A DNA stretch of 64,000 nucleotides, from assembly GCF_021134715.1 (NCBI RefSeq), contig NC_060023.1:1054001-1118000 (forward strand). The letters run 5' to 3'. The notes below the pieces were generated by a model. That model worked only from the letters and a program-made list of their open reading frames with translations. It was not told where the DNA came from and ran no database searches. This document shows positions 3,663 to 40,685 of the stretch, in pieces. Position 1 is the stretch's first letter. Every line of letters starts with the position of its first letter. The translations under genes and the position numbers were made by a program. The DNA is from Daphnia pulex. Lineage: Eukaryota; Arthropoda; Branchiopoda; Diplostraca; Daphniidae.

Positions 3663-6600
3663 TTATTCGGGGTTTATTGGATTACTACTCAAACAAATTT
3701 CAGTCGCCAAGTCGATGATGTTGAGATCTTGTGAATTTGAATTGCTGTCAAGGGATATCTCAACTTGATCTCGGTCGTCGGGGCGAACCCTACCGGCTTC
3801 TCGGGGGACAATAGAAAGTGGTAGGGTTCGCCCCGACGACCGTAGGCACGGTAGCGCTCGTGGTGGCGAAGGGCTACAACACACTGTCCTACAACATACT
3901 GTCAATATAAACAAGGTAAACAGAGCAGTTCAGTGTCAATTCAGGTTTTATTGCAGGTTTAGTGCCGTTTCTCACAGTGTGTCAGGTAGAGATTTGATGA
4001 AAGATTCTCTGACCAGGCATCGAGCCAGAACCAAAGCCGATAAAAGAAAAAATGATGCTTTACAACAGGAACCTAAACATTCATGGAACTTCTTGGCAGT
4101 AATTTTGGCAGTAATTTTGGCAGAGGCAGAGTTACCCACTCTGATGAAGTTGTAGCAGTTTCTAATCAAGAAACTGCTAGTGAAATAACTCCCAGTCTAA
4201 TGGTAAGTTTATCAATATTTGTGTTCAAGTTTACGATTAAAAAATGTTCCATTGTTTACAGAAAGAAGTGGTGTAGGACAGGATATCATTCATTCAGTCG
4301 CACTGGAAAAGACATCATTGAAGCAAGCATTTCACAAGAAGAAAAAGGAACTAATCAAGAAAGCGAGTGGAAAACTTGCATGAAAGACAAGGAAGATGCT
4401 TGGGATTCCAAGAGAGATGCTGTCTTTCAAAACTACATTAGCTCCCGTTCCCACAGTGCAAGTAAATGTGGTGTATGTGAAAAAGTCACTAATCCTGTTT
4501 GTTGCTTTACTTGCAAGCAAGATTTCTGCAGCAAATGTGATATGATCACTCACCGCAAACTGTTGGTACTACACAATAGGGAGGTGTGTGAGAATGGCGA
4601 AAATTTAAAAATCTTGCGCCAAAACGAGTTCATATCTGAAGATGGGTACATCACTGTTGAAGGTAATAGCGGTTTCTTGAATTATATATGTAGATTAATA
4701 ATTATCTTGTATTATAGTGTCCCTTCCTGAATGCAAAAGCCCTCATTCGTGTACTGCGAAACCTGGTTCAAGAGACGTAACCGTAGTTACAGCCAATGGT
4801 AAATGAGGGCAACTTCACGGAGGACAACCGATTACCAGGATTACATCGACGAAGACACAAACAATTATCAAGACTAGACGCTGATGAAGAAAATGATGAC
4901 ATCAATTAATATCCATAGTTTAAAACGCGCACAGATATTGTTATGCAAATCTTGGTATCACATTTGAAATACAGCTATTGTTTGAAGGGAATAAAATTAT
5001 TATTACGAGCTTTTTTATTTGTTTCATCAACATTATTCGTCATCCTTATAGGCCTTTCCGAGTCTGCGTGAAAATAAAATTGTTTGCAGTTAGTTATCCA
5101 TGCGTATGTTCATAATAGACTTAATCTGACTTTAAATTTTTATTCAGCGTAAAAAGTTGAGTCAGAGGTGTAATTTTCATTTATATTGGTGGTCAGCCGC
5201 ATAGTAGCGTGCGTGAAACTAAAAAAAATCGTTCGCAGTTAATTACCCATGCGTGTGTTTATTTTAGGCTTATTTTGACCTGATATTCTGACTCAGCGTA
5301 AAAAGTTGAGTCAGAGGTGTAATTTTCATTCATATTGGTGGTCAGCCGCATAGTAGCGTGCGTGAAACTAAAAAAAGTCGTTCGCAGTTAATTACCCATG
5401 CGTGTGTTTATTTTAGGCTTATTTTGACCTGATATTCTGATTCAGCGTAAAAAGTTGAGTCGGAGGTGTAATTTTCATTCATATTGGTGGTCAGCCGCAT
5501 AGTAGCGTGCGTGAAACTAAAAAAATCGTTCACAGTTAATTACACATGCGTGTGTTTATTTTAGGCTTATTCTGACCTGATATTCCGATTCAGCGTAAAA
5601 AGTTGATTGTGAGTTGTAATTTTCATTTATATTGGTGGTAGCCTGCGGGAGTTATTGGTTTACGACACTTTTTTTTTAAGGAAAAAGGCGCAGTAAGTCG
5701 CTTACTGTAACAGGGCGGACTTTTTTCAGAAAAAAATTAGATCGCAAAAAACTAAATCCCTCAGTCTACTACCAAAATGAATGAAATTAACATCTCTTAC
5801 TCAACTTTTGACGCTGAATCGGAATATCAGGTCAGAATAAGCCTTAAATAAACACACGAATGTGTATTTAACTGCGAACGAATTTTTACTTTCACGCTAC
5901 TCGCTAGGAGGCTTAACCACGAAAATTAATGAAAATTACAACTCTAACTCAACTTTTTATGCCGAATCGGAATATCAGGTGAAAAGAAGCCTAAAATAAA
6001 CACACGCAGGTGTAATCAACTCGGTAATTAACTGCGAACGAATTTTTTCTTTCACGCACGCAACTATGCGGCTGCCCACTAAAATGAATGAAAATTACAA
6101 CTCTAATTCAAATTTTTACGCAGAATCGAAATATGAAGTCAGACTAAGTATAACATCAACACGCGAATGTATAATTAACTGCGAAAGAATTTTATTTTCA
6201 CGCAGACTCGGAAAGGCCTATAAGGATGACGAATAATGTTGATGAAACAAATAAAAAAGCTCGTAATAATAATTTTATTCCCTTCAAACAATAGCTGTAT
6301 TTCAAATGTGATACCAAGATTTGCATAACAATATCTGTGCGCGTTTTAAACTATGGATATTAATTGATGTCATCATTTTCTTCATCAGCGTCTAGTCTTG
6401 ATAATTGTTTGTGTCTTCGTCGATGTAATCCTGGTAATCGGTTGTCCTCCGTGAAGTTGCCCTCATTTACCATTGGCTGTAACTACGGTTACGTCTCTTG
6501 AACCAGGTTTCGCAGTACACGAATGAGGGCTTTTGCATTCAGGAAGGGACACTATAATACAAGATAATTATTAATCTACATATATAATTCAAGAAACCGC

Positions 6601-9551
6601 TATTACCTTCAACAGTGATGTACCCATCTTCAGATATGAACTCGTTTTGGCGCAAGATTTTTAAATTTTCGCCATTCTCACACACCTCCCTATTGTGTAG
6701 TACCAACAGTTTGCGGTGAGTGATCATATCACATTTGCTGCAGAAATCTTGCTTGCAAGTAAAGCAACAAACAGGATTAGTGACTTTTTCACATACACCA
6801 CATTTACTTGCACTGTGGGAACGGGAGCTAATGTAGTTTTGAAAGACAGCATCTCTCTTGGAATCCCAAGCATCTTCCTTGTCTTTCATGCAAGTTTTCC
6901 ACTCGCTTTCTTGATTAGTTCCTTTTTCTTCTTGTGAAATGCTTGCTTCAATGATGTCTTTTCCAGTGCGACTGAATGAATGATATCCTGTCCTACACCA
7001 CTTCTTTCTGTAAACAATGGAACATTTTTTAATCGTAAACTTGAACACAAATATTGATAAACTTACCATTAGACTGGGAGTTATTTCACTAGCAGTTTCT
7101 TGATTAGAAACTGCTACAACTTCATCAGAGTGGGTAACTCTGCCTCTGCCAAAATTACTGCCAAAATTACTGCCAAGAAGTTCCATGAATGTTTAGGTTC
7201 CTGTTGTAAAGCATCATTTTTTCTTTTATCGGCTTTGGTTCTGGCTCGATGCCTGGTCAGAGAATCTTTCATCAAATCTCTACCTGACACACTGTGAGAA
7301 ACGGCACTAAACCTGCAATAAAACCTGAATTGACACTGAACTGCTCTGTTTACCTTGTTTATATTGACAGTATGTTGTAGGACAGTGTGTTGTAGCCCTT
7401 CGCCACCACGAGCGCTACCGTGCCTACGGTCGTCGGGGCGAACCCTACCACTTTCTATTGTCCCCCGAGAAGCCGGTAGGGTTCGCCCCGACGACCGAGA
7501 TCAAGTTGGGATATCTCGGCGAGCTCGGCGACGTTGCCGACGTTTCGTTTAACTATCATCGAAATGATCTGCTCGACGAGGAAGGCCAAGAAAGAGATGC
7601 TTAATCCGACCGAAAGAACGAGAAAAGCACCCGTCAAATTTTTCAGCGAAATAGGCATGTGTTTCGTTTCCCGTTTCTTGTCTCCTTTTTTCACGTTGGC
7701 CTTACACTGGCGTGGCATTGGGCGGAACCAAGAGTCCCAATGGTCGATCATTCCAGTTTGAAGCAGGTCCAAAAGCCTTTTTTTTTTACGTTAACAATTA
7801 AATGGTAGCACATAATTAGCCAAATGAATAACTACTTTAATTGTATACCCTTTATTAATCGTTTCGGTGTAGGGGCTGTGTTTCTGAAGCGCAAAATTAA
7901 CGGGTAAACTCAGGAAACAGTCACCTGCCATCTGTAATCCACACTTGCCCGTCTTTTCAAAATTTCTCTTAATGGCATCCATTTGGAAGTTTCTCGACTA
8001 TAGTTTTTGCCCACAAAAAAATAATAATAATAATTATAAATAAATAAAACAGTTGAGCAACTATTACATTTTTCAAAATAGCTTTAAAGTTTAAATATTT
8101 GTCTTTTAACTTACATCGGCAAAGGTGTTTCTCGATCCCGGCGTTATTAGACTGAGGCACTGCGATATCAAATTACATCGGGAATTGGGAAACGAGTCGA
8201 TGTTGTTTCGTAATTTCAAAAACACGCCCGTCGCATTGGGATCCTTTTTTAGTAGAATCAGTAAAAAAAAACATTGAAATCAGTTACATTAACTTAATCG
8301 CAAATTCTCCAGCAACTTACCATAACAAAAATATTTAGCGTCGCACCGTACCGAAATAGTAGATTGACATCGGTACTTTCAGCGACGCCGTACATAGAAT
8401 CGACTAGAGGATAATTGACTGGTGCCACGACATAGGTGAACAGGGTAGAAGTGTAAGCCTGGACGAAGATGAAAGCGGCCAGGGTCCAAACGCCAGCCAC
8501 CAGTCGAAACGGCAAACGTTTCGACGTGCAGGAACCCCCTGAATTTGATTAGACAAGTGATGGCATCATATACTTTGATAACTTCTTGCATCACAAATCA
8601 AACCTTGTGAGAGTAACATGCCAAAGACGTAGAGGAACTGTTTTCCATCTCCCTTCTTTTTCTTTACACTAGATGGATGACTTTTTGGTTTTTTCTTGAT
8701 GCTATTACGATCGGATTTTTGAGCAGAATCGATTTTAGGCAGCAATCGATATTGCAACATATTCAAGATGGTGATGACGCCCATCATGGAAATCAACATT
8801 CCCAACCAGACCTAGACGAATAATTTCTAAATTAATTATAGTAAGGTGAGAATGGAATAGATTTGGTTCGCCTACCGGCCATTGGAATGGTTTGACGACG
8901 GCGTCGATGTTAACCGTGTCGTCCTGGACGGCAAATAGAAGGTCGTAGCAGTCGTACACCCAAGGTACAGTCAAATCTACAAGTTTCATACGCCCGAATG
9001 TCGGCGTCACAGCTGCCGTTAAAAAGTCGCATTTCTGCAAGCGTAGAATTGATTAGTTTAGTAATGTGCACAATTTAAATTCCAACGACTTCAGCACTCA
9101 ACATCTTCCAGCAAATAACTGATAAGTCCCCGTTGCTTTCCCTGCGGCTCTAATATGTTCTCGGTGACTCTGACAAACTCGTAACTGAAATTGCAGATGA
9201 ACAATTTTCTTTTTTTACAAATGTCGAAACATTACCGAATTAATCAATTAATTCAGTTACGTGAAATTCAATCGATCTTTCAAATAATCGATGATGACGC
9301 CACTCTTGACTGGCCCCGACAATCCTTTGGGGTTTCCCTCCCAGCGAGGCTTCATCATAAGAAATAGAGAAATAATAAATCAACAATCAGAGTTAAGTTT
9401 TTTAAAAATACCGTCTTATTACCCAGATAACACGAAGGTGTTGGCCATTTAGCGGATTATTCTTCGAAGACATCACGAAAAAACGGCCCCAAAGCGAATA
9501 GAAACAGCAAACAATAAAAATGATGGGCGAGAAATGATTTGACAAGTACAT
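3663..9551 (-). CDS. IR-B: divergent ionotropic receptor, last exon split by a transposon
   Basis: Ligand-gated cation channel of the arthropod ionotropic receptor family, probably chemosensory. Coding exons: 9551-9423 (signal peptide), 9349-9261, 9184-9103, 9034-8876, 8811-8604 (M1), 8538-8321 (pore loop and M3, RLVAGVWTLAAFIFVQAYTS), 8243-8115, 7997-7849, 7776 onward (M4). All junctions are GT-AG and phases agree. There is no amino-terminal domain; S1 starts at PRWEGNPKG. A 3,746-bp element lies in the last exon, between residues encoding EIS. With it, translation adds 17 element-encoded residues and stops at 7455, giving 494 aa. The native tail (LDSNSNSQDLN to NPINPE) is stranded at 3663-3751; without the element and one target copy the frame gives 506 aa. 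M4 is kept and only the cytoplasmic tail is lost, so some function may remain. Confidence 0.85.
3960..4906 (+). pseudogene. Internally deleted KDZ-type transposase gene, left arm
   Basis: Transposon-encoded and truncated. From about 3965 a frame reads a basic N-terminal part (MKDSLTRHRARTKADKRK), then an intron-like interval (donor after TPSL near 4203, acceptor near 4260). Next comes a segment with W-x-TCMKDKEDAWDSKRDAVF and the cysteine cluster KCGVCEKVTNPVCCFTCKQ to CSKCDMITH (about 4465-4551), then the short segment VTVVTANG (about 4775-4799). In KDZ proteins the position after such a segment is followed by a long catalytic region. Here the sequence jumps instead to a basic/acidic C-terminal piece ending EENDDIN (stop near 4908). 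The family call rests on the spacing of W and Cys/His residues, seen by eye. Confidence 0.55.
5085..6184. repeat. Core of about 149-bp tandem repeats in inverted halves
   Basis: On the left, units recur with spacing 149, 149 and 148 (marker GTGTAATTTTCAT at 5168, 5317 and 5466, with a variant at 5614). Each contains CGCAGTTAATTAC, ATGCGTGTGTTTATTTT, CAGCGTAAAAAGTTGA and GTCAGCCGCATAGTAGCGTG. From about 5735 to 6180 the same unit appears in the opposite orientation but is clearly more diverged. The fold centre is near 5634 and carries the unrelated GTAAGTCGCTTAC inverted repeat. Confidence 0.85.
6363..7309 (-). pseudogene. Internally deleted KDZ-type transposase gene, right arm
   Basis: Mirror copy of the left-arm gene, with the same cysteine cluster (about 6718-6804, minus strand) and the same truncation. 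I saw no differences from the left arm over the coding part. Such identity means the arms are young, are homogenised by gene conversion, or were generated by one fold-back event. Confidence 0.55.
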
Positions 9552-10825: not shown

Positions 10826-10907
10826 ACCAGGTGTGGGGTTCGAACCCACGTCTCTATACAGAGACCAGATCTTAAGTCTGGCGCCTTAACCACTCGGCCA
10901 ACCTGGT
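10826..10907 (-). tRNA. tRNA-Leu(UAA)
   Basis: An 82-nt intact cloverleaf with no intron. The acceptor stem is ACCAGGT/ACCTGGT, the D arm contains the A box TGGCCGAGTGG, and the anticodon stem CCAGA/TCTGG closes the loop CTTAAGA with anticodon TAA. The long variable arm is typical of leucine tRNAs, and the T arm is GTGGGTTCGAACCCCAC. It is identical to the plus-strand copy at 19276-19357. Confidence 0.97.
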
Positions 10908-11104
10908 GGTGCTATCCGAATTAAGTTGCACTTGACAATCGTTAGATCGAATTCGTTTGCGCTTCTTTATTCAAAAGAATAGGGGGTACAAAGCGGTACA
11001 AAGGTAGAAAACATAAACACGTTGGACACAGCAGGGTTGAAACTAAACTGTTGATTAATTTAATTTTGGACATGATGTGCGCATTAGGAATTGTCGATGT
11101 TGTA

Positions 11105-19275: not shown

Positions 19276-19357
19276 ACCAGGTTGGCCGAGTGGTTAAGGC
19301 GCCAGACTTAAGATCTGGTCTCTGTATAGAGACGTGGGTTCGAACCCCACACCTGGT
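19276..19357 (+). tRNA. tRNA-Leu(UAA)
   Basis: An 82-nt copy identical to the reverse complement of 10826-10907, with anticodon TAA in the loop CTTAAGA and intact A box and B box (GGTTCGAAC). Both copies lie upstream of, and on the same strand as, an IR gene (IR-E here, IR-B for the other). Confidence 0.97.
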
Positions 19358-19801
19358 ATTGGTGATAGGTTATTTGTTTGCTGAGATCACGTCTATACGT
19401 CCCGCCAGTCGTACAAGCTTTTCTCTATCGATCCCCCTAGATAGCGGCCATGATTTCTTCTTAGCAACAATAGAATCCCAATTGTTGTTATGCCCGAAAT
19501 ACTTCATTAACTGTTTTGAAGTCTGAACTTGGCAATGCCCACCATTACGAAGTCTTCATGTCTGAGAAAACAGCATAGTATATTGGCAGAGCTCTGATAA
19601 TATAAGTTTGTTGATGTTGCCTCGGTCCCTACGAGACTTTTACCGGGAAATCAACGACTGCGGACTTTGATTGAGCAGGACCTTCCTTATACATAATCAA
19701 TTCGCAAGTTTAGAGCACACTAGTTCTATGTGAACTTTGTCAATGTGGAGCCAATTAACCGATAGGTTCTGCTGGGTATTTGAATTGGGATACAGGGAAT
19801 A

Positions 19802-26202: not shown

Positions 26203-27371
26203 ATGAAGGTAAAATTCGAAAACGCAAGTGTAAATCCTCACGAATAACAACTTGAAGAAATTGTCTTTCTATACAACGAAGCATTTCGGTTCGCTTGTGG
26301 AGACTTAAAACATGAATACGGTATTCCATTTCTGTTACTTAAAATAATTTCTTTATTTTTAAATTGCAGTTCCTCGTCCTCGTTGCCCTTTTCGCCTTTG
26401 CTGCTGCCGATTCTTACAAGGCTGCTGAATACAAAGCCCCAATGTATGAGACTCCCAAGTACGAGGCACCTAAGTACGAATCTCCTAAATACGAGACTCC
26501 CAAGTACGAGACTCCTAAATATGAAGCTCCTAAATACGAAGCCCCTAAGTACGAGACTCCCAAGTACGAGGCTCCCAAGTACGAGGCTCCTAAATACGTA
26601 GCCCCTAAGTACGAAGCCCCTAAGTACGAGACTCCCAAGTACGAGGCTCCCAAGTACGAGGCTCCTAAATACGAGACTCCCAAGTACGAGACTCCTAAAT
26701 ACGTAGCCCCTAAGTACGAAGCCCCTAAGTACGAAGCCCCTAAGTACGAGACTCCCAAGTACGAGACTCCCAAATACGAGGCTCCCAAGTACGAGGCACC
26801 TAAATACGTAGCCCCAAAGTACGAAGCTCCTAAATACGAGACCCCCAAGTACGAGGCTCCTAAATACGAAGAAGTCACATACGTAAGTTGAAGTTCAATT
26901 AATTAACTAAACATAATTAAAATTATGTAAGTAATGAAAATAATTCACTTTGTCGTTGAATTGCTACATTTTTAGGCCGCTCAACCCTACAGCTTCGGAT
27001 ACGAGGTCCAGGATAAAGAATCTTACACTGAATTCGAGCACAACGAAAAATCTGACTACAACGTTGTCACCGGATCTTACCGTGTGGTTCTCCCCGACAG
27101 CCGCGTCCAGATCGTCACCTACAAGGCTGACGCCAACGGATACACCGCTGACGTGAAATACGAAGGCGAAGCCAAATATCCCGAGTACGTCGAGTCGCAA
27201 TACAAAGCTGCTGCTTCCTACGCTGCCCCTGGCTACAAGGCTCCTGAATACAAAAAACCGGCCTACACTGCTCCAGCCTACCAAGCTCCAGCCTACACTG
27301 CTCCAACCTACGCTGCTCCAGCCTACACTGCTCCAGCCTACCAAGCTCCTGCTGCCTACCCTAAATATTAA
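26203..27371 (+). CDS. Cuticle protein with KYEAP repeats and chitin-binding domain
   Basis: Secreted structural protein of the exoskeleton, 304 aa in three exons: 26203-26208 (only Met-Lys, typical of arthropod cuticle genes), 26370-26882 and 26976-27371. The signal peptide is KFLVLVALFAFAAA. Residues from about 31 to 165 are 27 pentapeptides KY[EV][ATS]P (26457-26861). Exon 3 encodes a Rebers-Riddiford chitin-binding domain (YSFGYEVQDKESYTEFEHNE, then GSYRVVLPDSRVQIVTYKAD, GYTADVKYEGEAKYPEY), closest to RR-2 style. A second low-complexity tail follows (YTAPAYQAP units). The Tyr-rich repeats suggest cross-linking in sclerotised cuticle. AATAAA at 27411 fits the poly(A) signal. Confidence 0.95.
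26457..26861 (+). repeat. 15-bp coding repeats with a 105-bp higher order
   Basis: Twenty-seven in-frame copies of a 15-bp unit encoding KYEAP, KYETP, KYESP or KYVAP. The three KYVAP variants are units 10, 17 and 24, exactly seven units (105 bp) apart, which points to expansion in blocks of seven. Confidence 0.9.
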
Positions 27372-28460
27372 TTCCCATAAATTGCAATCTTCATTGTGAG
27401 ATTATTATTTAATAAATCAAATCTTCTAACGATTTTATAGCATTCAAATGTCTTCGTGTAATCTTCATAGAAAAACCCTGAACCAGACCAGTTAACAAAC
27501 ATGATTGAAGTTTCTCAGTTATGTTATATAGTTAACTAAGTTAACTGTTCCACTGTTTAAATTGGGTCATCTCTTCTGACAACATTCTCCGTTTTTTGAC
27601 CGAACCGTTCCGACCTTCAATACAAATCTTGCTTAACTGAAAGAACCCCAAAAAATATTGTCAACGAAACGAATAGAAAGCATATTGTCTTTCGATGACG
27701 ATTGGGTTAAATTTACTGAAATTGGTTGAAGACTTGGATGTTCTTTAATTGTTAATGGACGATCCTACTCATTTTTTTCTAAACTCTAAACTGTCACTGT
27801 CAGAGTGTCAGGTAACATTACGAATAATCAGTTAACCGAAAGAAGGTCTCAAATCTGCTACCAGGTGCCTCTGAGCCATGATAAATTGATAACAATAATG
27901 GCTGCCGTTGTCAATGATTGGCTGATTGCTGATTCGCTGATTGTGATCTAACATTAAAGACTTTTTTGTTAGACATTTTCTGGAATTTGTGAAATTAAGA
28001 AAGTGTGACTGATCCTGAAAACATGTTTTTCTGTCACATAATTACAGTGTTTGATTTTCTTTGTTTCCTTTCAAGAAGCAGCTGATTACCAGTGAGACAT
28101 GTCTCAACTTGGCTTGGACGTCTACTTCCTCAAGAGATTACTATTGGCTTGGTGGTGATGACCATACACAGAGAAGAACTTTGTGAGTATTTAAATTTTT
28201 CAGTTCTCTGTTCATTCAATATTGTTTGTTATTTCACTTGAGTGTCGATCAAGCTATATAGATGAGCTCCACCTAGAGTGGAGTTTTGTTTGCAACTTAG
28301 TTGTAAACATTTCTTTTTTCTTACAGTAAATGGCTTACAATAGGCTCAGGTAAATTTATCAGCTGCCAGAAACATCAATTTCTGGTCCTTTGCTCATCTT
28401 TGAACAAATCTATTAAGTCGTTCAGTTACTGATTTATTTTTTTTTTGTATTATCTGACAG

Positions 28461-28703
28461 AAACTGTTCCAGCGATAAAGCTTACTTGTTAGATTTTTCT
28501 CTACTTCTTATTTCTAAATTTGCTAATAGTTCTGTAAATATTCATTGGACGTTAAAAAGAACCACACAATCGGGATCCTCGTGAAATTTGGGGTCGATTT
28601 CGTGCCTCTCAGTAAGTCAGTAGAAAATATCGAAAAATTTTGGTTTTCGTTTAAAACACATGAAATCGACCCAAAATTTCATAGAAATTTGGTTCTTTCG
28701 AAT
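28461..28703. mobile_element. Half of a TIR element (CAAAGCTCACTTG family), left arm
   Basis: One end (AACTGTT, then AAAGCTTACTTGTTAG at about 28475) matches the end of the complete element at 32021-32435. The inner part shares the motif GTGAAATTTGGGGTCGATTT and an internal inverted repeat, but the opposite terminus is missing. The mirror copy is at about 38493-38735. Confidence 0.6.
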
Positions 28704-28715
28704 TCGAATATTTCG

Positions 28716-28845
28716 TGTAGAGGTTGGGTTAGAACCGTGCATTGGTATAGAGGTTGGGTGAGAAGTGAGAACTAAACTGTGAAGGGGTGTAGAGGTTGGG
28801 TGAGAACCGTGCAATGTAGTGTAGAGGATGGGTGAGAACGACACG
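28716..28845. repeat. Minisatellite GTAGAGGTTGGGTGAGAAC, left arm
   Basis: About four imperfect copies of a unit containing TAGAGGTTGGGTGAGAA and CCGTGCA, just upstream of the TYY gene promoter. The mirror copy is at about 38351-38480. Confidence 0.7.
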
Positions 28846-28912
28846 TGTCGAATCATTATCAAGCAGGTAGAATAGCCACAAGGCTTAAGAGGTGAGGGTG
28901 AGAAAAAAATCG

Positions 28913-28947
28913 TATAAAAAGAGAGAGAAAATTCTATCGAGATCAGT
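28913..28947 (+). promoter_or_regulatory. TATA box and initiator of the left TYY gene
   Basis: TATAAAAA at 28913, then ATCAGTC around 28942-28948, the same spacing (about 32 bp) as in the cuticle gene at 26128. Decayed copies of the downstream leader recur near 29575-29665 and 29870-29965. Confidence 0.7.
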
Positions 28948-29121
28948 CGAGTGAGCATCTCCGACACGGCAACAACTGCAGCGCATTATTGGTCCCCAAC
29001 TGCTTTCTTCATGGTATTACCAGTTCGCAATCATGGGTAAATATACTTTTTTTTTCATGGAGTTTGGTGTGAATGCCATCTTTCGTGTTAATGTTAACAT
29101 GCTAGTTATTACTGAATTTTA

Positions 29122-29541
29122 ATGTTTCAATTTATTTACTGTCTTGTTATCTTTGGCGTCGTGCTGTTGTTGGGTTTTGTACGGTTGAAGGCTGGGTCGA
29201 CTGCTGTTGTACTGATGTCTCCTGGGTATGGTGGATACCAAACCGCATCGCTGCCTCTTTACTACGCAACAACCGGTTACTTCACAACCAAGGCTCCAGG
29301 ATTTCACGCCGCAGCTTATGATGCTTACGAGCTACATCACCAAAAAGAGCCTGCCGACTACACCGAAGTTTCCAAGTACTACACCACCAAGTCACCGGAG
29401 TGCTACACGGCTGCGTATGCTGCCCTTGCCTACTGCACCGAGGTTCCAATTTATTACAACAACGAAGCGCGCAGGTTCTACACTGCAACATACGCTGCCC
29501 CGAACCACTACACCGACGCCAAGAAGTATTACTCTGCGTAA
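29122..29541 (+). CDS. TYY-rich secreted cuticle-like protein, left copy
   Basis: An open frame of 139 aa starting with a hydrophobic signal (FIYCLVIFGVVLLLGFV), followed by imperfect repeats of the form YYTTKxPExYTAAYxAxxYxTExxxYY, rich in Tyr, Thr and Ala. This composition resembles extracellular crustacean cuticle or mucin-like proteins. It has no chitin-binding domain. A leader exon ending ATGG|GTAAAT at 29033-29036 probably belonged to the ancestral gene. The matching acceptor is kept in the decayed paralogue (TCTAG) but reads TCTTG here, so translation probably starts at the ATG at 29122. An identical gene lies in the other arm. Confidence 0.7.
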   Translation: MFQFIYCLVIFGVVLLLGFVRLKAGSTAVVLMSPGYGGYQTASLPLYYATTGYFTTKAPGFHAAAYDAYELHHQKEPADYTEVSKYYTTKSPECYTAAYAALAYCTEVPIYYNNEARRFYTATYAAPNHYTDAKKYYSA

Positions 29542-29559
29542 AAGGAGTCGTCTAGAAAC

Positions 29560-29680
29560 ATGAAGTCGTATGAAACGAGTGAGGATCTTCGACACGGCAT
29601 CAACTGCAGTGCACATCTGTCACCAAATGCATTCCTCATCGTAAAACCAATTCGAAATTATCGGTAAATATTGTGTTTTT
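29560..29680 (+). pseudogene. Truncated leader-exon copy of the TYY family, left arm
   Basis: Matches the leader exon of the TYY gene (CACGGCATCAACTGCAGTG, then CAATTCGAAATTATC|GGTAAATA). The ATG is replaced by ATC, and no coding exon follows before the next copy. Mirror at about 37516-37636. Confidence 0.65.
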
Positions 29681-29779
29681 ACATTTGGGCATTGAATCGA
29701 TTCCACTTTTTTTTTAATTTGTTAATTTAGTCATAATTGAAAAGTACACCAATGACACGTGTTGCATTTTTACCAAGCA

Positions 29780-30915
29780 GGTACAATTGCCGCAAGGCTT
29801 AAGCTGAAAGGTGGAATAGAAGTCCAACGAAAAATTGTATAAACCGAGGAAAGGCGATAGGAGTCAGTCGAGTGAACATCTCCAACACGGTAACAACTGC
29901 ATCGTACTATTTGTCGCTAGCTGCCTTGTTCATCTCATCGTATAACCAGCTCGTAATCCTGATAAATATTCTGTTTTTTTACACGAGTTTTGTATAAATC
30001 CTTTTTTTTTCTAATTGTATGCCATTTCTTATTTATTGTATTAATGTTTACATTCATTGATTGTCTAGTTAATTATGGCGTGCTGCTGTTGGGTGTTGTA
30101 TCGTTGATGGCTGTGTCGACGACTCGTGTACCGATGTCTCCTTAGTATGGCGGGTGCCAAACCGCAACGCCGCCGTCTTACTACACAACATACGCCACGA
30201 CCAGTTACTTCACCACCAAGGCACCAGAATATTACACCACAACTTATGATGCCCCGATCTGCACCACCAAAGTACCAGAGTACTACACTACTTCGTTAGC
30301 TGTCCCGTCCTACTACACCGAGCTTCCCAAGTACTACTCTGTTCCCAGTTACTACACCGAGGCTCCAGCCTATTACTCCACTAAAGCTGGCGAATACTAC
30401 ACCGAAGTATCCAAGTTCTACTCTGCCCCGAGCTCCACCATCACATCTTAGGAGACAAAGTGTTACTACCCAGCGGCTGCTCCTTCGTACCACATTGACC
30501 TGAAAGACTAAACTGATGCGATAGCTAACTACACCAAAACCTACGCTACACCTAGATACTGCACCACAGAAGTCGAATATTACACAACAACCAATGCTGC
30601 CCCAGTCTACTACACCGACGAACTTCAGTATTACTCTTCTCTAAGCTACTACCGAACAGAAACTTCCGCTTACTACACCACCTAGGTCCCGGAGTTTTAC
30701 ACTTCAGCTTACGCATCTCCCAGTTACTATGCCGAGGCTCCCAAGTACGTATCCAAGGCACCCGAGTATTACCACTGCTAACGCTGTTCCGACCTACTAC
30801 ACCGAAGTTCTGAAGTTTTACTCTACCCTGAGTTATTACACCACTGAGGCACCTGAATCTGAACACCACAACCTACGTTCCTCCAACTCACTACAGGGAC
30901 GCTCCTAAAAACTAG
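29780..30915 (+). pseudogene. Decayed TYY-rich paralogue, left arm
   Basis: A second TYY-family gene with its promoter region (GTATAAACCG near 29837, CAGTCGAGTGAACATC near 29862), leader exon and coding exon (acceptor TCTAG before 30070). The exon encodes many YYTT..APEYYTT..YAAPSYYTE units and would have been roughly twice as long as the 139-aa gene. The start codon reads CTG, and several in-frame stops and a frameshift near the end leave no long frame. The mirror copy at 36281-37416 has the same lesions, so decay preceded the inversion or the arms are kept identical. Confidence 0.75.
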
Positions 30916-31527
30916 AGTCGAATTTTCAATTGTAATAATTATGTTCAGATTTGTCGGTTACATCTTAAAAGTATTAGTCACTGGGAATTGTTGATCTTTA
31001 ATGAGAAAATAAATTTTTAATTCTGGGTAATCATTTAGTACGACATCTCTTGCCACCTGACAGCCTTTGACATTGCGACGTTTTCTGAATTTTGTTGGAT
31101 CTTTACTATTTCGCATGTTGGAGTGGAGAAGACTATTGCCCTAGTCAATCTGCCTTCGGACGTATTCTGGTGTTGGAACGAACTTTATTTACAGGGCAAA
31201 TTACGAAAGAGACGTGCTGTGGTGTTTACTAAAATTGTTTGATGTAACAGCTCTATTTTTAACTTAAGTTGGCGTAACAGAAGGGTTGCAAATTTGGTTT
31301 CTCAGAAGTTTATTGAAAATCTGGGGATGATCAGTTACCACTTGCCTATATCTTATGTAAAACTTCAAAGTTGTAAAAAATATACAAGTCAAATGCTAAA
31401 CATTATTTTATTATAAATGATCTCACAGCAAAAAGATCTTTCAAAGGAATTGCTTTTTTGTCCCACCTCCACCCACAATTCCACCACATTTTACAATCAC
31501 ATACATAAATACATACACTTAAGTTAA

Positions 31528-31764
31528 CCCGTTGGCTGCCACGCCATACAACCCGTAGGTTGATCTCTACTACTCTACGCGCCACGTCTGAAGGATCCGT
31601 GACCAAAGTGGGACTTGCCATTGCTGACAAGTCCGGGCTGACACGGTGACAGGAGAATCCATCACCGCATCGACAAGGGGGAACTTGGTGCATTGCCAAA
31701 CAGGCGCCTTTCGGCGCGGCCCATGCTAAGGAGCGGGGAGAACAAAGGCGTGGCAGACAACGGG
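31528..31764. mobile_element. piggyBac-like MITE, left arm
   Basis: A 237-bp element between two TTAA sites (31524-31527 and 31765-31768), with inverted termini CCCGTTGGCTGCCACGCC and GGCGTGGCAGACAACGGG. TTAA target duplication and CCC/GGG ends are the hallmark of the piggyBac superfamily. There is no transposase. Mirror at 35432-35668. Confidence 0.85.
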
Positions 31765-32020
31765 TTAACTAACACAAACACAAACATATTACCAACAACA
31801 AATGATGATCCGCGCTGACACTTTGGAGATACCGGCGACGATATGGTGTCCATCTTCTCGAAATTTCCTCTGCATTACCTTAATAAAGAGACAACAGTTC
31901 TTATTTACTGACATGCCAATGAAAGTTACATAATACAGACAGAAACAATAATCAGGTTTTTTAGCTCAAAGATTTTAAATATGCAATTTTTTAAAGTTTA
32001 AATCAAGCTTGCAATGTTGA

Positions 32021-32435
32021 GAACTGTTAACAGAACAAAGCTCACTTGCTAGTCTTTTTTAAAAAATTCCGGAAGTATACCGGAAGTAACCACAGCGCCT
32101 CAACCATTGAGCTGTCGTCAAAATAAACCACATATTCGTGATCCCCATGAAATTTGGGGTCGATTAGGTGGGATTTAAACGAAATCCAAAATTTGGCCAA
32201 AATCGAGAATTTTCCTGAACTATAGTTCAGGAAAATTTTCGAAACCGGAAGTACGAATACGTAAAAAACAAAACATGAACTTTACTACAAATTTTACGAG
32301 GATCACGAATATGTGGTTCTTTCGTACGTCAGATCAATATTTACTAAACTACAGACAGAAATGAGTAAACCGGAAGTAGAAAAAAAAAAAAAATATCGAA
32401 AACCTAACAAGTGAGCTTTGTTGGGGGAATAGTTA
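32021..32435. mobile_element. TIR element (CAAAGCTCACTTG family), left arm
   Basis: Ends CAAAGCTCACTTGCTAG (32036) and CTAACAAGTGAGCTTTG (to 32420) are inverted repeats, and similarity continues outward (AACTGTT and AATAGTT). Inside, a CCACATATTCGTGAT inverted pair and a perfect 26-bp palindrome centred at about 32221 give a multi-hairpin structure. No coding sequence. Mirror at 34761-35175. Confidence 0.7.
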
Positions 32436-33568
32436 TCGTTAGTTATCACTAAATACTTCAACAAAATAACTGCCAATAAATGTTTAAAAAGATGTGCAAA
32501 GTAATGAAACTGACTGTTTTGACAGCTGCACATTTTCAAAAAGCCATCTAGCGTTAGAAATAACAAACGTCCAAGTAAAACTTTGTTTGCGCGCAAAAAG
32601 GGCCTGATTTGGGAATTATTACACAGACACAGAGTTTAACGCAACTAGACTATTGGTAGATAACCTAAGAAAATAAGTCAATTGTCCGGTACCTGGCCAT
32701 AATCCCGAGGTAAGTAACTGCAGGTGTGTAACAGCAAAGGGTAGCGACCACGGAAGTGTTCCAACTCGTCGGTGAAGTAAGACAAGTTGTAGCAGCAAAA
32801 GCAGTGAAGCTAGATGAGTGTACGTCGGGAAGATGAGGATGGAGAAGATTGTTGTTGGAAGTCTCTCTTCCGTCATGGACAAAGGTCAGCATTGGCTTAA
32901 GGATCTATTACGTGCTCTGTAAAAAAAAAATGTATTGCATTAATGAAAATATAACAGTTAATAAAGCATTTCAATCTTTACCTTAAGTAACAAGCTCACT
33001 GAAAGTTTCATGATAAAAAACCGTAAAAATGGAAATCACAGCAACCAACAGCCTTACTCCTGAGGTTTAGGTAACTTTCCTGATGTTAAAGAAAGTGTAA
33101 TTATGAAGTATTGCAGTAGCGTGGTGATAGGTTATATTGATGCTTACCTTTATCATATGGGTGAATGGTGATGAATTTAGTAAGGCATTTGACGTGGTGT
33201 GGTTGGTAGCAGTAATGGGGAAATACCTCGTCTCCGCACATTTGTATTCCACGATATTTGAGCTTCACATATGAGTTTTAGGCTTTTGACAACATGATGG
33301 GTCTATTGGATGGAAAGTGACTGAGCGCTAAGTCAACTTTTGGGAATGACTGACAGTGACAGTATGCATCTAAATTTGAAGAAATAAGTTGGTACAGTAT
33401 AAAAATAAGGAAATCAGGTCAAGATAAACCTACACAAGTTACGAAGTTCAATTTGATATAAGAAATCACAGGAATATAATCACAGGAAGTATTAATCAGC
33501 TACAATTTGTTTCGCCCTTTTCGCCTCATTTAACATTGTAAAAACAACAACTAGCGACATCTGGTAAT
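32436..33568. other. Inner part of left palindrome arm
   Basis: Open frames of 87 codons (32619-32882) and 61 codons (33067-33252) on the minus strand, next to plausible splice sites, suggest a transcribed but possibly non-coding unit. No domain or homologue is recognised. The same frames lie on the plus strand of the other arm (34313-34576 and 33943-34128). Confidence 0.35.
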
Positions 33569-33627
33569 GAGTTTTGAATCCTAAGTTGGTTGCACAGTCG
33601 CAGCTCAAATTATCAGATATTACCAGA
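33569..33627. other. Unpaired spacer at the palindrome centre
   Basis: About 59 bp without an inverted partner. Within about 100 bp of it the arms differ most: 9-10 extra bases on the right near 33638-33647 and several substitutions at 33510-33535 versus 33660-33690. That pattern is expected if gene conversion fades near a real symmetric centre. Confidence 0.75.
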
Positions 33628-34760
33628 TGTCGCTAGTGTTGCCCTTGTTGTTTTTACAACGTAAAACGAGGCGAAAAGTGTGAAACAAATTGTAGCTGAT
33701 TAATACTTCCTGTGATTATATTCCTGTGATTTCTTATATCAAATTGAACTTCGTAACTTGTGTAGGTTTATCTTGACCTGATTTCCTTATTTTTATACTG
33801 TACCAACTTATTTCTTCAAATTTAGATGCATACTGTCACTGTCAGTCATTCCCAAAAGTTGACTTAGCGCTCAGTCACTTTCCATCCAATAGACCCATCA
33901 TGTTGTCAAAAGCCTAAAACTCATATGTGAAGCTCAAATATCGTGGAATACAAATGTGCGGAGACGAGGTATTTCCCCATTACTGCTACCAACCACACCA
34001 CGTCAAATGCCTTACTAAATTCATCACCATTCACCCATATGATAAAGGTAAGCATCAATATAACCTATCACCACGCTACTGCAATACTTCATAATTACAC
34101 TTTCTTTAACATCAGGAAAGTTACCTAAACCTCAGGAGTAAGGCTGTTGGTTGCTGTGATTTCCATTTTTACGGTTTTTTATCATGAAACTTTCAGTGAG
34201 CTTGTTACTTAAGGTAAAGATTGAAATGCTTTATTAACTGTTATATTTTCATTAATGCAATACATTTTTTTTTTACAGAGCACGTAATAGATCCTTAAGC
34301 CAATGCTGACCTTTGTCCATGACGGAAGAGAGACTTCCAACAACAATCTTCTCCATCCTCATCTTCCCGACGTACACTCATCTAGCTTCACTGCTTTTGC
34401 TGCTACAACTTGTCTTACTTCACCGACGAGTTGGAACACTTCCGTGGTCGCTACCCTTTGCTGTTACACACCTGCAGTTACTTACCTCGGGATTATGGCC
34501 AGGTACCGGACAATTGACTTATTTTCTTAGGTTATCTACCAATAGTCTAGTTGCGTTAAACTCTGTGTCTGTGTAATAATTCCCAAATCAGGCCCTTTTT
34601 GCGCGCAAACAAAGTTTTACTTGGACGTTTGTTATTTCTAACGCTAGATGGCTTTTTGAAAATGTGCAGCTGTCAAAACAGTCAGTTTCATTACTTTGCA
34701 CATCTTTTTAAACATTTATTGGCAGTTATTTTGTTGAAGTATTTAGTGATAACTAACGAT

Positions 34761-35175
34761 AACTATTCCCCCAACAAAGCTCACTTGTTAGGTTTTCGAT
34801 ATTTTTTTTTTTTTTTCTACTTCCGGTTTACTCATTTCTGTCTGTAGTTTAGTAAATATTGATCTGACGTACGAAAGAACCACATATTCGTGATCCTCGT
34901 AAAATTTGTAGTAAAGTTCATGTTTTGTTTTTTACGTATTCGTACTTCCGGTTTCGAAAATTTTCCTGAAGTATAGTTCAGGAAAATTCTCGATTTTGGC
35001 CAAATTTTGGATTTCGTTTAAATCCCACCTAATCGACCCCAAATTTCATGGGGATCACGAATATGTGGTTTATTTTGACGACAGCTCAATGGTTGAGGCG
35101 CTTAGGTTACTTCCGGTATACTTCCGGAATTTTTTAAAAAAGACTAGCAAGTGAGCTTTGTTCTGTTAACAGTTC
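34761..35175. mobile_element. TIR element (CAAAGCTCACTTG family), right arm
   Basis: Mirror of 32021-32435. It differs by two bases near 35101 and one in the central palindrome near 34970, so the two copies are not perfectly homogenised. Confidence 0.7.
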
Positions 35176-35431
35176 TCAACATTGCAAGCTTGATTTAAAC
35201 TTTAAAAAATTGCATATTTAAAATCTTTGAGCTAAAAAACCTGATTATTGTTTCTGTCTGTATTATGTAACTTTCATTGGCATGTCAGTAAATAAGAACT
35301 GTTGTCTCTTTATTAAGGTAATGCAGAGGAAATTTCGAGAAGATGGACACCATATCGTCGCCGGTATCTCCAAAGTGTCAGCGCGGATCATCATTTGTTG
35401 TTGGTAATATGTTTGTGTTTGTGTTAGTTAA

Positions 35432-35668
35432 CCCGTTGTCTGCCACGCCTTTGTTCTCCCCGCTCCTTAGCATGGGCCGCGCCGAAAGGCGCCTGTTTGG
35501 CAATGCACCAAGTTCCCCCTTGTCGATGCGGTGATGGATTCTCCTGTCACCGTGTCAGCCCGGACTTGTCAGCAATGGCAAGTCCCACTTTGGTCACGGA
35601 TCCTTCAGACGTGGCGCGTAGAGTAGTAGAGATCAACCTACGGGTTGTATGGCGTGGCAGCCAACGGG
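35432..35668. mobile_element. piggyBac-like MITE, right arm
   Basis: Mirror of 31528-31764, again bounded by TTAA on both sides. It lies at the mirrored position, so it inserted before the arms formed or was copied between them. Confidence 0.85.
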
Positions 35669-36280
35669 TTAACTTAAGTGTATGTATTTATGTATGTGAT
35701 TGTAAAATGTGGTGGAATTGTGGGTGGAGGTGGGACAAAAAAGCAATTCCTTTGAAAGATCTTTTTGCTGTGAGATCATTTATAATAAAATAATGTTTAG
35801 CATTTGACTTGTATATTTTTTACAACTTTGAAGTTTTACATAAGATATAGGCAAGTGGTAACTGATCATCCCCAGATTTTCAATAAACTTCTGAGAAACC
35901 AAATTTGCAACCCTTCTGTTACGCCAACTTAAGTTAAAAATAGAGCTGTTACATCAAACAATTTTAGTAAACACCACAGCACGTCTCTTTCGTAATTTGC
36001 CCTGTAAATAAAGTTCGTTCCAACACCAGAATACGTCCGAAGGCAGATTGACTAGGGCAATAGTCTTCTCCACTCCAACATGCGAAATAGTAAAGATCCA
36101 ACAAAATTCAGAAAACGTCGCAATGTCAAAGGCTGTCAGGTGGCAAGAGATGTCGTACTAAATGATTACCCAGAATTAAAAATTTATTTTCTCATTAAAG
36201 ATCAACAATTCCCAGTGACTAATACTTTTAAGATGTAACCGACAAATCTGAACATAATTATTACAATTGAAAATTCGACT

Positions 36281-37416
36281 CTAGTTTTTAGGAGCGTCCC
36301 TGTAGTGAGTTGGAGGAACGTAGGTTGTGGTGTTCAGATTCAGGTGCCTCAGTGGTGTAATAACTCAGGGTAGAGTAAAACTTCAGAACTTCGGTGTAGT
36401 AGGTCGGAACAGCGTTAGCAGTGGTAATACTCGGGTGCCTTGGATACGTACTTGGGAGCCTCGGCATAGTAACTGGGAGATGCGTAAGCTGAAGTGTAAA
36501 ACTCCGGGACCTAGGTGGTGTAGTAAGCGGAAGTTTCTGTTCGGTAGTAGCTTAGAGAAGAGTAATACTGAAGTTCGTCGGTGTAGTAGACTGGGGCAGC
36601 ATTGGTTGTTGTGTAATATTCGACTTCTGTGGTGCAGTATCTAGGTGTAGCGTAGGTTTTGGTGTAGTTAGCTATCGCATCAGTTTAGTCTTTCAGGTCA
36701 ATGTGGTACGAAGGAGCAGCCGCTGGGTAGTAACACTTTGTCTCCTAAGATGTGATGGTGGAGCTCGGGGCAGAGTAGAACTTGGATACTTCGGTGTAGT
36801 ATTCGCCAGCTTTAGTGGAGTAATAGGCTGGAGCCTCGGTGTAGTAACTGGGAACAGAGTAGTACTTGGGAAGCTCGGTGTAGTAGGACGGGACAGCTAA
36901 CGAAGTAGTGTAGTACTCTGGTACTTTGGTGGTGCAGATCGGGGCATCATAAGTTGTGGTGTAATATTCTGGTGCCTTGGTGGTGAAGTAACTGGTCGTG
37001 GCGTATGTTGTGTAGTAAGACGGCGGCGTTGCGGTTTGGCACCCGCCATACTAAGGAGACATCGGTACACGAGTCGTCGACACAGCCATCAACGATACAA
37101 CACCCAACAGCAGCACGCCATAATTAACTAGACAATCAATGAATGTAAACATTAATACAATAAATAAGAAATGGCATACAATTAGAAAAAAAAAGGATTT
37201 ATACAAAACTCGTGTAAAAAAACAGAATATTTATCAGGATTACGAGCTGGTTATACGATGAGATGAACAAGGCAGCTAGCGACAAATAGTACGATGCAGT
37301 TGTTACCGTGTTGGAGATGTTCACTCGACTGACTCCTATCGCCTTTCCTCGGTTTATACAATTTTTCGTTGGACTTCTATTCCACCTTTCAGCTTAAGCC
37401 TTGCGGCAATTGTACC
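36281..37416 (-). pseudogene. Decayed TYY-rich paralogue, right arm
   Basis: Minus-strand mirror of 29780-30915 with the same lost start codon and stops. It has no independent open frame of useful length. Confidence 0.75.
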
Positions 37417-37654
37417 TGCTTGGTAAAAATGCAACACGTGTCATTGGTGTACTTTTCAATTATGACTAAATTAACAAATTAAAAAAAAAGTGGAATCGAT
37501 TCAATGCCCAAATGTAAAAACACAATATTTACCGATAATTTCGAATTGGTTTTACGATGAGGAATGCATTTGGTGACAGATGTGCACTGCAGTTGATGCC
37601 GTGTCGAAGATCCTCACTCGTTTCATACGACTTCATGTTTCTAGACGACTCCTT

Positions 37655-38074
37655 TTACGCAGAGTAATACTTCTTGGCGTCGGTGTAGTGGTTCGGGGCA
37701 GCGTATGTTGCAGTGTAGAACCTGCGCGCTTCGTTGTTGTAATAAATTGGAACCTCGGTGCAGTAGGCAAGGGCAGCATACGCAGCCGTGTAGCACTCCG
37801 GTGACTTGGTGGTGTAGTACTTGGAAACTTCGGTGTAGTCGGCAGGCTCTTTTTGGTGATGTAGCTCGTAAGCATCATAAGCTGCGGCGTGAAATCCTGG
37901 AGCCTTGGTTGTGAAGTAACCGGTTGTTGCGTAGTAAAGAGGCAGCGATGCGGTTTGGTATCCACCATACCCAGGAGACATCAGTACAACAGCAGTCGAC
38001 CCAGCCTTCAACCGTACAAAACCCAACAACAGCACGACGCCAAAGATAACAAGACAGTAAATAAATTGAAACAT
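37655..38074 (-). CDS. TYY-rich secreted cuticle-like protein, right copy
   Basis: Encodes the same 139-aa product as 29122-29541, with signal segment FIYCLVIFGVVLLLGFV followed by Tyr/Thr-rich repeats ending DAKKYYSA. The promoter is mirrored (TATAAAAA complement ending near 38283). The two genes point toward each other from opposite ends of the palindrome, so both arms could supply transcript for the same protein. Confidence 0.7.
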   Translation of the reverse strand: MFQFIYCLVIFGVVLLLGFVRLKAGSTAVVLMSPGYGGYQTASLPLYYATTGYFTTKAPGFHAAAYDAYELHHQKEPADYTEVSKYYTTKSPECYTAAYAALAYCTEVPIYYNNEARRFYTATYAAPNHYTDAKKYYSA

Positions 38075-39585
38075 TAAAATTCAGTAATAACTAGCATGTT
38101 AACATTAACACGAAAGATGGCATTCACACCAAACTCCATGAAAAAAAAAGTATATTTACCCATGATTGCGAACTGGTAATACCATGAAGAAAGCAGTTGG
38201 GGACCAATAATGCGCTGCAGTTGTTGCCGTGTCGGAGATGCTCACTCGACTGATCTCGATAGAATTTTCTCTCTCTTTTTATACGATTTTTTTCTCACCC
38301 TCACCTCTTAAGCCTTGTGGCTATTCTACCTGCTTGATAATGATTCGACACGTGTCGTTCTCACCCATCCTCTACACTACATTGCACGGTTCTCACCCAA
38401 CCTCTACACCCCTTCACAGTTTAGTTCTCACTTCTCACCCAACCTCTATACCAATGCACGGTTCTAACCCAACCTCTACACGAAATATTCGAATTCGAAA
38501 GAACCAAATTTCTATGAAATTTTGGGTCGATTTCATGTGTTTTAAACGAAAACCAAAATTTTTCGATATTTTCTACCGACTTACTGAGAGGCACGAAATC
38601 GACCCCAAATTTCACGAGGATCCCGATTGTGTGGTTCTTTTTAACGTCCAATGAATATTTACAGAACTATTAGCAAATTTAGAAATAAGAAGTAGAGAAA
38701 AATCTAACAAGTAAGCTTTATCGCTGGAACAGTTTCTGTCAGATAATACAAAAAAAAAATAAATCAGTAACTGAACGACTTAATAGATTTGTTCAAAGAT
38801 GAGCAAAGGACCAGAAATTGATGTTTCTGGCAGCTGATAAATTTACCTGAGCCTATTGTAAGCCATTTACTGTAAGAAAAAAGAAATGTTTACAACTAAG
38901 TTGCAAACAAAACTCCACTCTAGGTGGAGCTCATCTATATAGCTTGATCGACACTCAAGTGAAATAACAAACAATATTGAATGAACAGAGAACTGAAAAA
39001 TTTAAATACTCACAAAGTTCTTCTCTGTGTATGGTCATCACCACCAAGCCAATAGTAATCTCTTGAGGAAGTAGACGTCCAAGCCAAGTTGAGACATGTC
39101 TCACTGGTAATCAGCTGCTTCTTGAAAGGAAACAAAGAAAATCAAACACAGTAATTATGTGACAGAAAAACATGTTTTCAGGATCAGTCACACTTTCTTA
39201 ATTTCACAAATTCCAGAAAATGTCTAACAAAAAAGTCTTTAATGTTAGATCACAATCAGCGAATCAGCAATCAGCCAATCATTGACAACGGCAGCCATTA
39301 TTGTTATCAATTTATCATGGCTCAGAGGCACCTGGTAGCAGATTTGAGACCTTCTTTCGGTTAACTGATTATTCGTAATGTTACCTGACACTCTGACAGT
39401 GACAGTTTAGAGTTTAGAAAAAAATGAGTAGGATTGTCCATTAACAATTAAAGAACATCCAAGTCTTCAACCAATTTCAGTAAATTTAACCCAATCGTCA
39501 TCGAAAGACAATATGCTTTCTATTCGTTTCGTTGACAATATTTTTTGGGGTTCTTTCAGTTAAGCAAGATTTGTATTGAAGGTCG

Positions 39586-40685
39586 AAATAGTTTATGAAT
39601 AATTTTTTGACAAGAAGCTGCAAAATGATACTTCAACACACTTTATGATTATCTTAAATTCCAGTGATCCACTTAGTTCACCTGCAATGGCTGCTAATCC
39701 TGACAAAAATCCAGAAAACAATGTAAAAAAGAACATCAACAATTTATCATTTCAGGAGACCACAAACCACAACAGGTATGGTTTAAGTCAAGCCAAGTAA
39801 TTTAGTGGTTAATACCATGTGTATGTAGTTAACACTCATTTAACTTTATTAACAATAGGCTAATAGGCTTTAACTATAGCATCAAACTACCTTATTAAAA
39901 TCCATAGTTTGAAGTTGCTTTGGGCACTAATGCGGACGCTGGAAGCAGTCGATTCTTTGGCAAAATACCAAACAAATTGATGTAAACGGAGTTTTTTCGT
40001 CTGCTTGTTTGTACTATATTCACTTTTTTATGGAAACACTGAAGCGATCCAGGTGTAAACATACAACTTTTCCACCATGACTGTGACTACATTTAACTAT
40101 TACAAAGGAGTCTTATATTTACAAATCTAAAGAGATGGGGCAGAAAATCAGTTGAGCTGACTATCTAATAAATACATCTAATGAGCACTTCCTTAATTTA
40201 TCTGTACATATTTTTGTTCATATAATTTAAAAGAAAACAACCCACTCAAGCTTTTAGCACGGAGAACAAAGAGGGACTTGGTAAGAAGAAAGAAAGGACA
40301 CATTCGCTCATTAAAAAAATGTAGCCTACTTTAATTGACTGTCAAAAATATTTTAAACTAAAGTGGAAATCCCTCTCGATATTAACTGAAGTAGACTACA
40401 AGTAAAGTTCTGCCAAAGCCCGGTGCCCGGATACTGACAGACGACGATCTATGAGCTCGTTGAGGCGACACTAGGTCGACTTAATACTCGCCATTCTGTT
40501 GCAATTTTCAAAAATCATTAATTCCGCATTCATTCGCGAAATAATTGTATTTTAAGTTATATTAAATTTTATTGGTCTAACTAAAAAGAAACGTACTGAT
40601 TGATACGGATGCGTCAGTCAGAAGGGAAATTCGGGAAACAATTTAGAATTGTTCTTGTTGACTCGACGACCAGATCAGCTTTCGA
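39586..40685. other. Interval between palindrome and carrier gene
   Basis: Positions 40195-40380 are a second copy of 42130-42330, the leader/promoter region of the carrier gene (shared CATATTTTTGTTCA, AAACAACCCACT, CACATTCGCTCAT), in direct orientation. A short frame at 39687-39776 (MAANPDKNPENNVKKN, ending before GTATGG, preceded by a possible acceptor) could be an orphan exon on the plus strand, but nothing downstream supports it. Confidence 0.45.

Follow-up and report, generated by a model that had tools for sequence, protein, structure and literature searches.

A 64,000-nucleotide stretch of the Daphnia pulex genome (contig NC_060023.1, positions 1,054,001 to 1,118,000; the whole stretch is called the window below, and all coordinates are counted from its first letter) contains two palindromes, P1 at 27611-39585 and P2 at 3754-7515, in which nearly identical outer arms give way at an abrupt step to a core whose two halves are clearly diverged. 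P1 is a real structure in the given sequence and is most likely a young inverted duplication seeded by an inverted repeat. More specifically, we put the probability at roughly 60% that it is a recent interstitial duplication in which an older imperfect inverted repeat served as the seed for fold-back or template-switch copying. Such a route is already known and is not radically new, and the second example adds to its usefulness.

Arms and cores of the two palindromes

P1 is a 12-kb inverted duplication with its axis at about 33598. When the window is compared with itself by BLAST, 27611-39588 pairs with 39585-27608 on the opposite strand at 99.45% identity over 11,996 columns, and an arm-to-arm alignment of the 5.90-kb outer arms contains 6 substituted sites among 5,903 aligned, along with 1 indel. 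These substitutions amount to 5 events, at 27761, 28046, 28619, 32092-32093 (a two-base difference) and 32225, while the indel is one A in a run of A at 32380; no arm difference lies between 28619 and 32092. Counted per kilobase from the outer junction inward, the substitutions number 2, 1, 0, 0, 3 and 0 (with 903 bp in the last bin). Both the outermost 150 bp (27611-27760) and the 1,119 bp directly outside the step (32395-33513) are identical letter by letter between the arms. Across the whole window there are 15 inverted groups sharing an exact 20-mer, and because the only ones longer than 100 bp are those in P1 (4,783 and 1,134 bp) and P2 (1,321 and 198 bp), a chance origin of the palindromes is excluded.

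The outer junctions of P1 are sharp, and the flanks on the two sides are unrelated to each other. An earlier note made from the letters of this stretch had the extent of P1, its axis, its arm length (5,958 bp with the stem included) and the sharpness of its outer junctions right. It had also proposed a central spacer of about 59 bp, and there is indeed a spacer, with a loop that is slightly shorter, at about 50 bp (33569-33618).

Around this loop, which is unalignable between the arms, the P1 core stem pairs 33514-33568 with 33619-33681; its 55 aligned sites include 5 substitutions, and the two halves also differ by an 8-bp indel. The substitution rate therefore drops from 0.0909 per site in the core to 0.0010 in the outer arm, abruptly at 33513/33514, and a model with two rates and a step outperforms one in which the rate decays exponentially with distance (log-likelihood -64.1 versus -68.0). 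The outer-arm events, with the indel counted among them, show no departure from uniformity (Kolmogorov-Smirnov p = 0.44, a test with little power at n = 6). Folded alone with DNA parameters and without shuffles, the core (33514-33681) gives a long imperfect hairpin at -48.9 kcal/mol. The somewhat wider stretch 33490-33706 folds far better than its shuffles (z = -17, 0 of 200 shuffles); since it includes copied arm, this score applies to the palindrome as it is now, not to the ancestor proposed for it.

A viral contig that came up in a scan with one 18-base match was considered as a relative of the P1 core and rejected, the match being taken as chance. Two short matches link the viral record to the core (E = 7e-4 and 0.002), each of them resting on these 18 bases; the P1 arm has no match in this record, and no hairpin is visible by eye in the 231 bases around the 18-base match.

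P2, which is missing from the earlier note, lies 20 kb from P1 and is built in the same way. Its outer arms differ by 1 substitution in 1,328 aligned sites and are identical letter by letter over the 1,321 bp directly outside the step (3761-5081), and its core (5082-5491 against about 5770-6187) has 64 substitutions in 406 aligned sites around an unalignable middle. Here the rate drops sharply from 0.158 per site in the core to 0.0008 in the arm, and the step is better than the decay by 24 log units (log-likelihood -185.1 versus -209.2). Minisatellite arrays cover both sides of the P2 core, which thus consists of inverted, diverged repeat units: by Tandem Repeats Finder (TRF), the left core lies within an array of 149-bp units at 5072-5643 (3.9 copies, 92% matches), and an array at 5864-6180 on the right holds about two 159-bp units (79% matches). 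The left array begins at 5072, a boundary that is defined independently of the palindrome, and the P2 step falls about 10 bp further in, as expected were priming to begin where inverted homology ended. The spacing in P2 is about 280 bp.

Near each outer end of P2 there is also a short-looped inverted repeat whose 23 bp pair perfectly (3772-3842, with its mirror at 7427-7497), and the arm carries an unassigned cysteine-rich open reading frame (ORF). The right flank of P2 belongs to a diverged gene family of the window, though none of the paralogous copies spans the site in a way that would reveal it empty.

The outer junctions bear on whether these palindromes could be mobile elements with giant terminal inverted repeats, or else the result of a staggered-break inversion whose duplicated edges became the arms. 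Elements resembling miniature inverted-repeat transposable elements (MITEs) in the P1 arms and the cysteine-rich ORF in the P2 arm could be taken in favor of such an origin, but no exact direct duplication of 1-20 bp is present at the outer junctions of either palindrome, and the window contains no further copy of the P1 arm at E<=1e-3. There is likewise no transposase match in the 13 left-arm ORFs of P1 (all those of at least 80 aa, taken from stop to stop) or in the two left-arm ORFs of P2 that were tested, the latter having no Pfam match of any kind above the cut-offs. Nor would a staggered-break inversion lead one to expect that the exact center is occupied by an imperfect inverted repeat. 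We consider either origin very improbable, and the description of P1 in the earlier note as a segmental inverted duplication, and not a transposon end, is borne out by its differing flanks, the lack of a junction duplication and the lack of a second arm copy in the window.

Origin of the palindromes

If P1 arose by copying from a seed, then before the event a single arm would have stood beside an imperfect inverted repeat of greater age, its halves about 55-63 bp long and its loop 50 bp. Next to this repeat, at a break or where a fork had stalled, a 3' end would have folded back, or switched strand, to pair with the other half, and DNA synthesis would then have copied the adjoining 5.9 kb in inverted orientation. 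Finally, the new end would have been connected, by joining or by switching back, with the DNA on the opposite side. Since only the DNA beyond the paired halves is copied in this scheme, the copied part would be identical and the seed halves would retain their older differences. P2 would have followed the same route from diverged inverted minisatellite units. We infer this order of events, including the rejoining, the recency of the copying and the greater age of the cores, from the structures described above.

Several features point to this scheme. Both palindromes consist of two inverted copies around a non-duplicated spacer, which is the arrangement expected of a fold-back duplication. Both also have an imperfect inverted repeat at the edge of the spacer, which would be the seed if it is older than the event, and sharp outer junctions into unrelated flanks, either of which may be the new one. 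The step, its recurrence in P2 and the identical outermost 150 bp of P1 favor recent copying over gene conversion. If there has been no conversion, then 6 differences in 5,903 sites would by our own calculation correspond to an age of about 57,000 generations at the Daphnia magna rate of 8.96e-9 substitutions per bp per generation (PMC7820357), or to about 15,000-142,000 generations across the genotype rates of the same table.

The earlier note had seen the divergence of P1 as concentrated near the center and had taken this as a pointer to arm-to-arm gene conversion. The excess takes the form of a step, which is preferred over decay in both palindromes, and the pointer to conversion is not supported: an imperfect inverted repeat present beforehand would explain the step with no need for conversion. 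According to the conversion account, P1 would be an old palindrome held near-identical, as are those of the human Y chromosome, which are far longer than P1, and its center would diverge because it is beyond the reach of conversion or because the tip is subject to central deletions or error-prone repair. Pseudogene lesions and a MITE-like element (31522-31770) that are common to both P1 arms would fit this account, and both are shared because no arm difference falls between 28619 and 32092. There is also a precedent in the Caenorhabditis gene pair F44E5.4/F44E5.5, a structure found in three species (PMC1803023), so a diverged center taken alone is compatible with conversion as well. On the other hand, conversion would lead us to expect a gradient, although a gradient is no strict hallmark of such palindromes, where both palindromes have a step, and there is no added divergence at the very outer edge of P1, though 3 of the 6 outer-arm events lie in the outermost 1.01 kb. 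With the substitution rate given above and an allelic conversion rate in D. magna of 6.13e-7 per heterozygous site per generation (PMC7820357), the equilibrium divergence of two copies would by our own arithmetic be about 3%, and a divergence of 0.1% would require about 30 times more conversion, with the proviso that the D. magna rate is allelic and that conversion within a palindrome may be faster. We consider maintenance by conversion unlikely, but give it real weight.

A different concern is that a fold-back read was joined into the contig, which would make the palindromes an artefact of the library or the assembly. Fold-back reads are known, at up to 0.61% of Oxford Nanopore reads of genomic DNA or cDNA (PMC12870357) and at 1-4% in a study cited there, and they may arise repeatedly at the same site and can tangle assemblies (PMC12870357). 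Amplification produces palindromic chimeras (PMC6218980), false positives occur among palindromes identified in assemblies (PMC7953838), and to find two within 64 kb seems a lot, a judgment made without a baseline. However, a fold-back read would be symmetric about its tip and would return into its own left flank, whereas here each arm meets a different flank, so that an artefact would require a second, independent false join for each palindrome. The outer-arm differences of P1 are moreover mostly substitutions (6 sites versus 1 homopolymer indel), which in our judgment is unlike polishing residue. The chance that the palindromes are artefacts of this kind appears small.

Other points weigh against seeded copying itself. 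In the yeast sae2 clones analyzed, mismatches within the seed were corrected in all (PMC10622511), unlike in the P1 core, where they are retained; two exceptional clones of a double mutant are named elsewhere in the same paper. Simple fold-back leads to terminal or dicentric products, and an interstitial duplication that keeps both flanks would need an extra rejoining step. By eye, clear microhomology is absent at the outer junctions, and what there is is too short to say which arm was the original. The presence of half of the P1 outer-arm events in the outermost 1.01 kb is also unfavorable, yet chance is compatible with such clustering. Lower identity near the spacer is found as well in a palindrome common to several species (PMC1803023), and two palindromes from one window are a small sample.

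How far seeded copying resembles what is known elsewhere can be judged from several systems. A single-copy spacer was present in 21 of 21 sequenced junctions of human inverted duplications, 3 of which had inverted repeats 82%, 90% and 95% alike at the spacer edges (PMC3907307). In yeast, fold-back priming takes place at short inverted repeats near breaks (PMC10622511, PMC7467729), and in single-stranded DNA inverted repeats can interact even when they are diverged and far apart (PMC10164571). These human and yeast duplications are like P1 and P2 in their inverted copies, their single-copy spacer and the homology at its edges, and in that diverged repeats can seed them (PMC3907307, PMC10622511, PMC7467729), but they are far larger and either lie beside terminal deletions or are tied to dicentric chromosomes, while P1 and P2 are interstitial, measure kilobases and retain mismatches. 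A replication route through template switching at short interrupted inverted repeats is also described in yeast, the two-step origin-dependent inverted-repeat amplification (ODIRA) (PMC10766183). The 50-bp loop of P1 is near its preferred spacing, which is printed as 40-80 kb in that paper where the context demands bp. ODIRA differs in that it yields inverted triplications from two seeds, whereas P1 and P2 have two copies and one seed each, and the spacing in P2 is longer.

The nearest likeness on the side of maintenance is the Caenorhabditis elegans F44E5.4/F44E5.5 locus, where arms of 2.2 kb flank a 126-bp spacer and identity is 100% for the genes and 95.7% for the inner arms, a structure that recurs in two other Caenorhabditis species (PMC1803023). 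It shares with P1 the short spacer, a high arm identity (99.7%), mirrored paralogous genes and a lower identity near the spacer, but the Caenorhabditis examples were picked for being common to several species, which argues for maintenance. Palindromes of the human Y chromosome have a similar arm identity of about 99.9% outside the core, and differ in that variants genotyped across many Y chromosomes were used to study their conversion (PMC3723533). Palindromes are also reported for Folsomia (PMC5490193), and D. pulex is among three species omitted from one palindrome screen for want of annotation (PMC7953838). Among the papers listed in our literature searches, many of them not on Daphnia, none describes such a locus in Daphnia by its title or the start of its abstract.

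Arm contents and other features of the window

The earlier note had placed a cuticle-like gene cluster in the arms of P1. This is not supported by the 13 left-arm ORFs, none of which reaches the Pfam cut-off; 12 are without a match at E<=0.1, and the remaining one matches DUF3984 below the cut-off (E = 0.048). The gene with a cuticle protein domain instead lies outside P1 as its left neighbor (Table 1), where a repeat-rich stretch at 26343-26879, directly upstream of the PF00379 stretch, may be another exon of the same gene.

Table 1. Features of P1, P2 and the neighboring genes, in window coordinates
Feature	Coordinates	Strand	Basis or remarks
P1 left outer arm	27611..33513	+	near-identical to reverse complement of 33682-39585
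P1 core stem, left half (proposed older quasi-palindrome)	33514..33568	+	arm alignment
P1 loop	33569..33618	.	alignment; DNA fold of 33490-33706
P1 core stem, right half	33619..33681	-	arm alignment
P1 right outer arm	33682..39585	-	self-BLAST, arm-to-arm alignment
Open 139-aa ORF in P1 left arm, hydrophobic start, tyrosine-rich YYTT/YTE repeats	29122..29541	+	no Pfam match
Mirror of the 139-aa ORF in P1 right arm, same translation, no difference	37655..38074	-	ORF list, alignment
Stop-ridden paralogue of the 139-aa ORF in P1 left arm	30068..30920	+	in-frame stops; blocks 80% and 82% alike
MITE-like element	31522..31770	.	24-bp terminal inverted repeats at 96%, TTAA within both ends
MITE-like element	32106..32338	.	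51-bp inverted repeats at 80%; related piece at ~28550-28700
Cuticle protein gene, left neighbor outside P1	26343..27371	+	PF00379, E = 4.9e-14, in 26976-27371
Mitochondrial carrier stretch, right neighbor outside P1	41351..42190	-	PF00153
P2 left outer arm	3754..5081	+	arm alignment vs 6188-7515
P2 left core, part of 149-bp array	5082..5491	+	alignment; TRF
P2 right core, inverted diverged minisatellite units	5770..6187	-	alignment; TRF
P2 right outer arm	6188..7515	-	alignment

The most conspicuous reading frame of the arms is the open 139-aa ORF, whose hydrophobic start gives its predicted product a secreted look. Its two copies face the P1 axis and hence each other, and read-through of this convergent pair could produce double-stranded RNA. 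The stop-ridden paralogue in the same arm is probably a pseudogene and is mirrored without difference at 36276-37128. The first of the two MITE-like elements, mirrored at 35426-35674, resembles piggyBac-type MITEs. The arm difference at 32092-32093, the sole two-base difference of the P1 outer arms, lies just outside the second MITE-like element, and that element itself contains a further arm difference; the idea that the two-base difference was a copy of a neighboring repeat was dropped, as the letters disagree.

Elsewhere in the window, a diverged gene family has copies at 312-1748, 7555-9013, 11152-12500, 15289-16457 and 20476-21856, the last of them inverted, with about 59-71% DNA identity to the first copy. 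One ORF of the family has a match below the cut-off to ligand-gated ion channels, and its members are possibly ionotropic receptors. An 85-bp inverted repeat of 100% identity (10824-10908 and 19275-19359, 8.4 kb apart), with a related stretch at 83-153, is perhaps a short mobile element. Two ORFs, 51688-52182 and 58429-58806, match the 2OG-Fe(II) oxygenase family, narrowly missing the cut-off in one case and narrowly passing it in the other, and are perhaps related genes.

Implications for inverted gene duplication

The early state of long interstitial palindromes is usually hidden because conversion or decay erases it, and the boundary at which identical arms give way to an imperfect core would in these two cases be a readable sign of the seed. 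If P1 arose as proposed, then isolates without the duplication should retain the imperfect hairpin beside a single arm. Should they do so, inverted gene duplication in such genomes would be predictable from the quasi-palindromes that already exist in them. A broader and more tentative possibility, which we regard as doubtful though worth stating, is that the two palindromes, as independent cases, show gene-scale palindromes at their birth. On this view diverged inverted repeats, such as the hairpin of P1 and the inverted minisatellite units of P2, would repeatedly give rise to interstitial inverted duplications, 1-6 kb in length, in which both flanks are retained. Ordinary quasi-palindromes would then be germline seeds of gene duplication in this lineage, often enough for two very young cases to be found next to each other.

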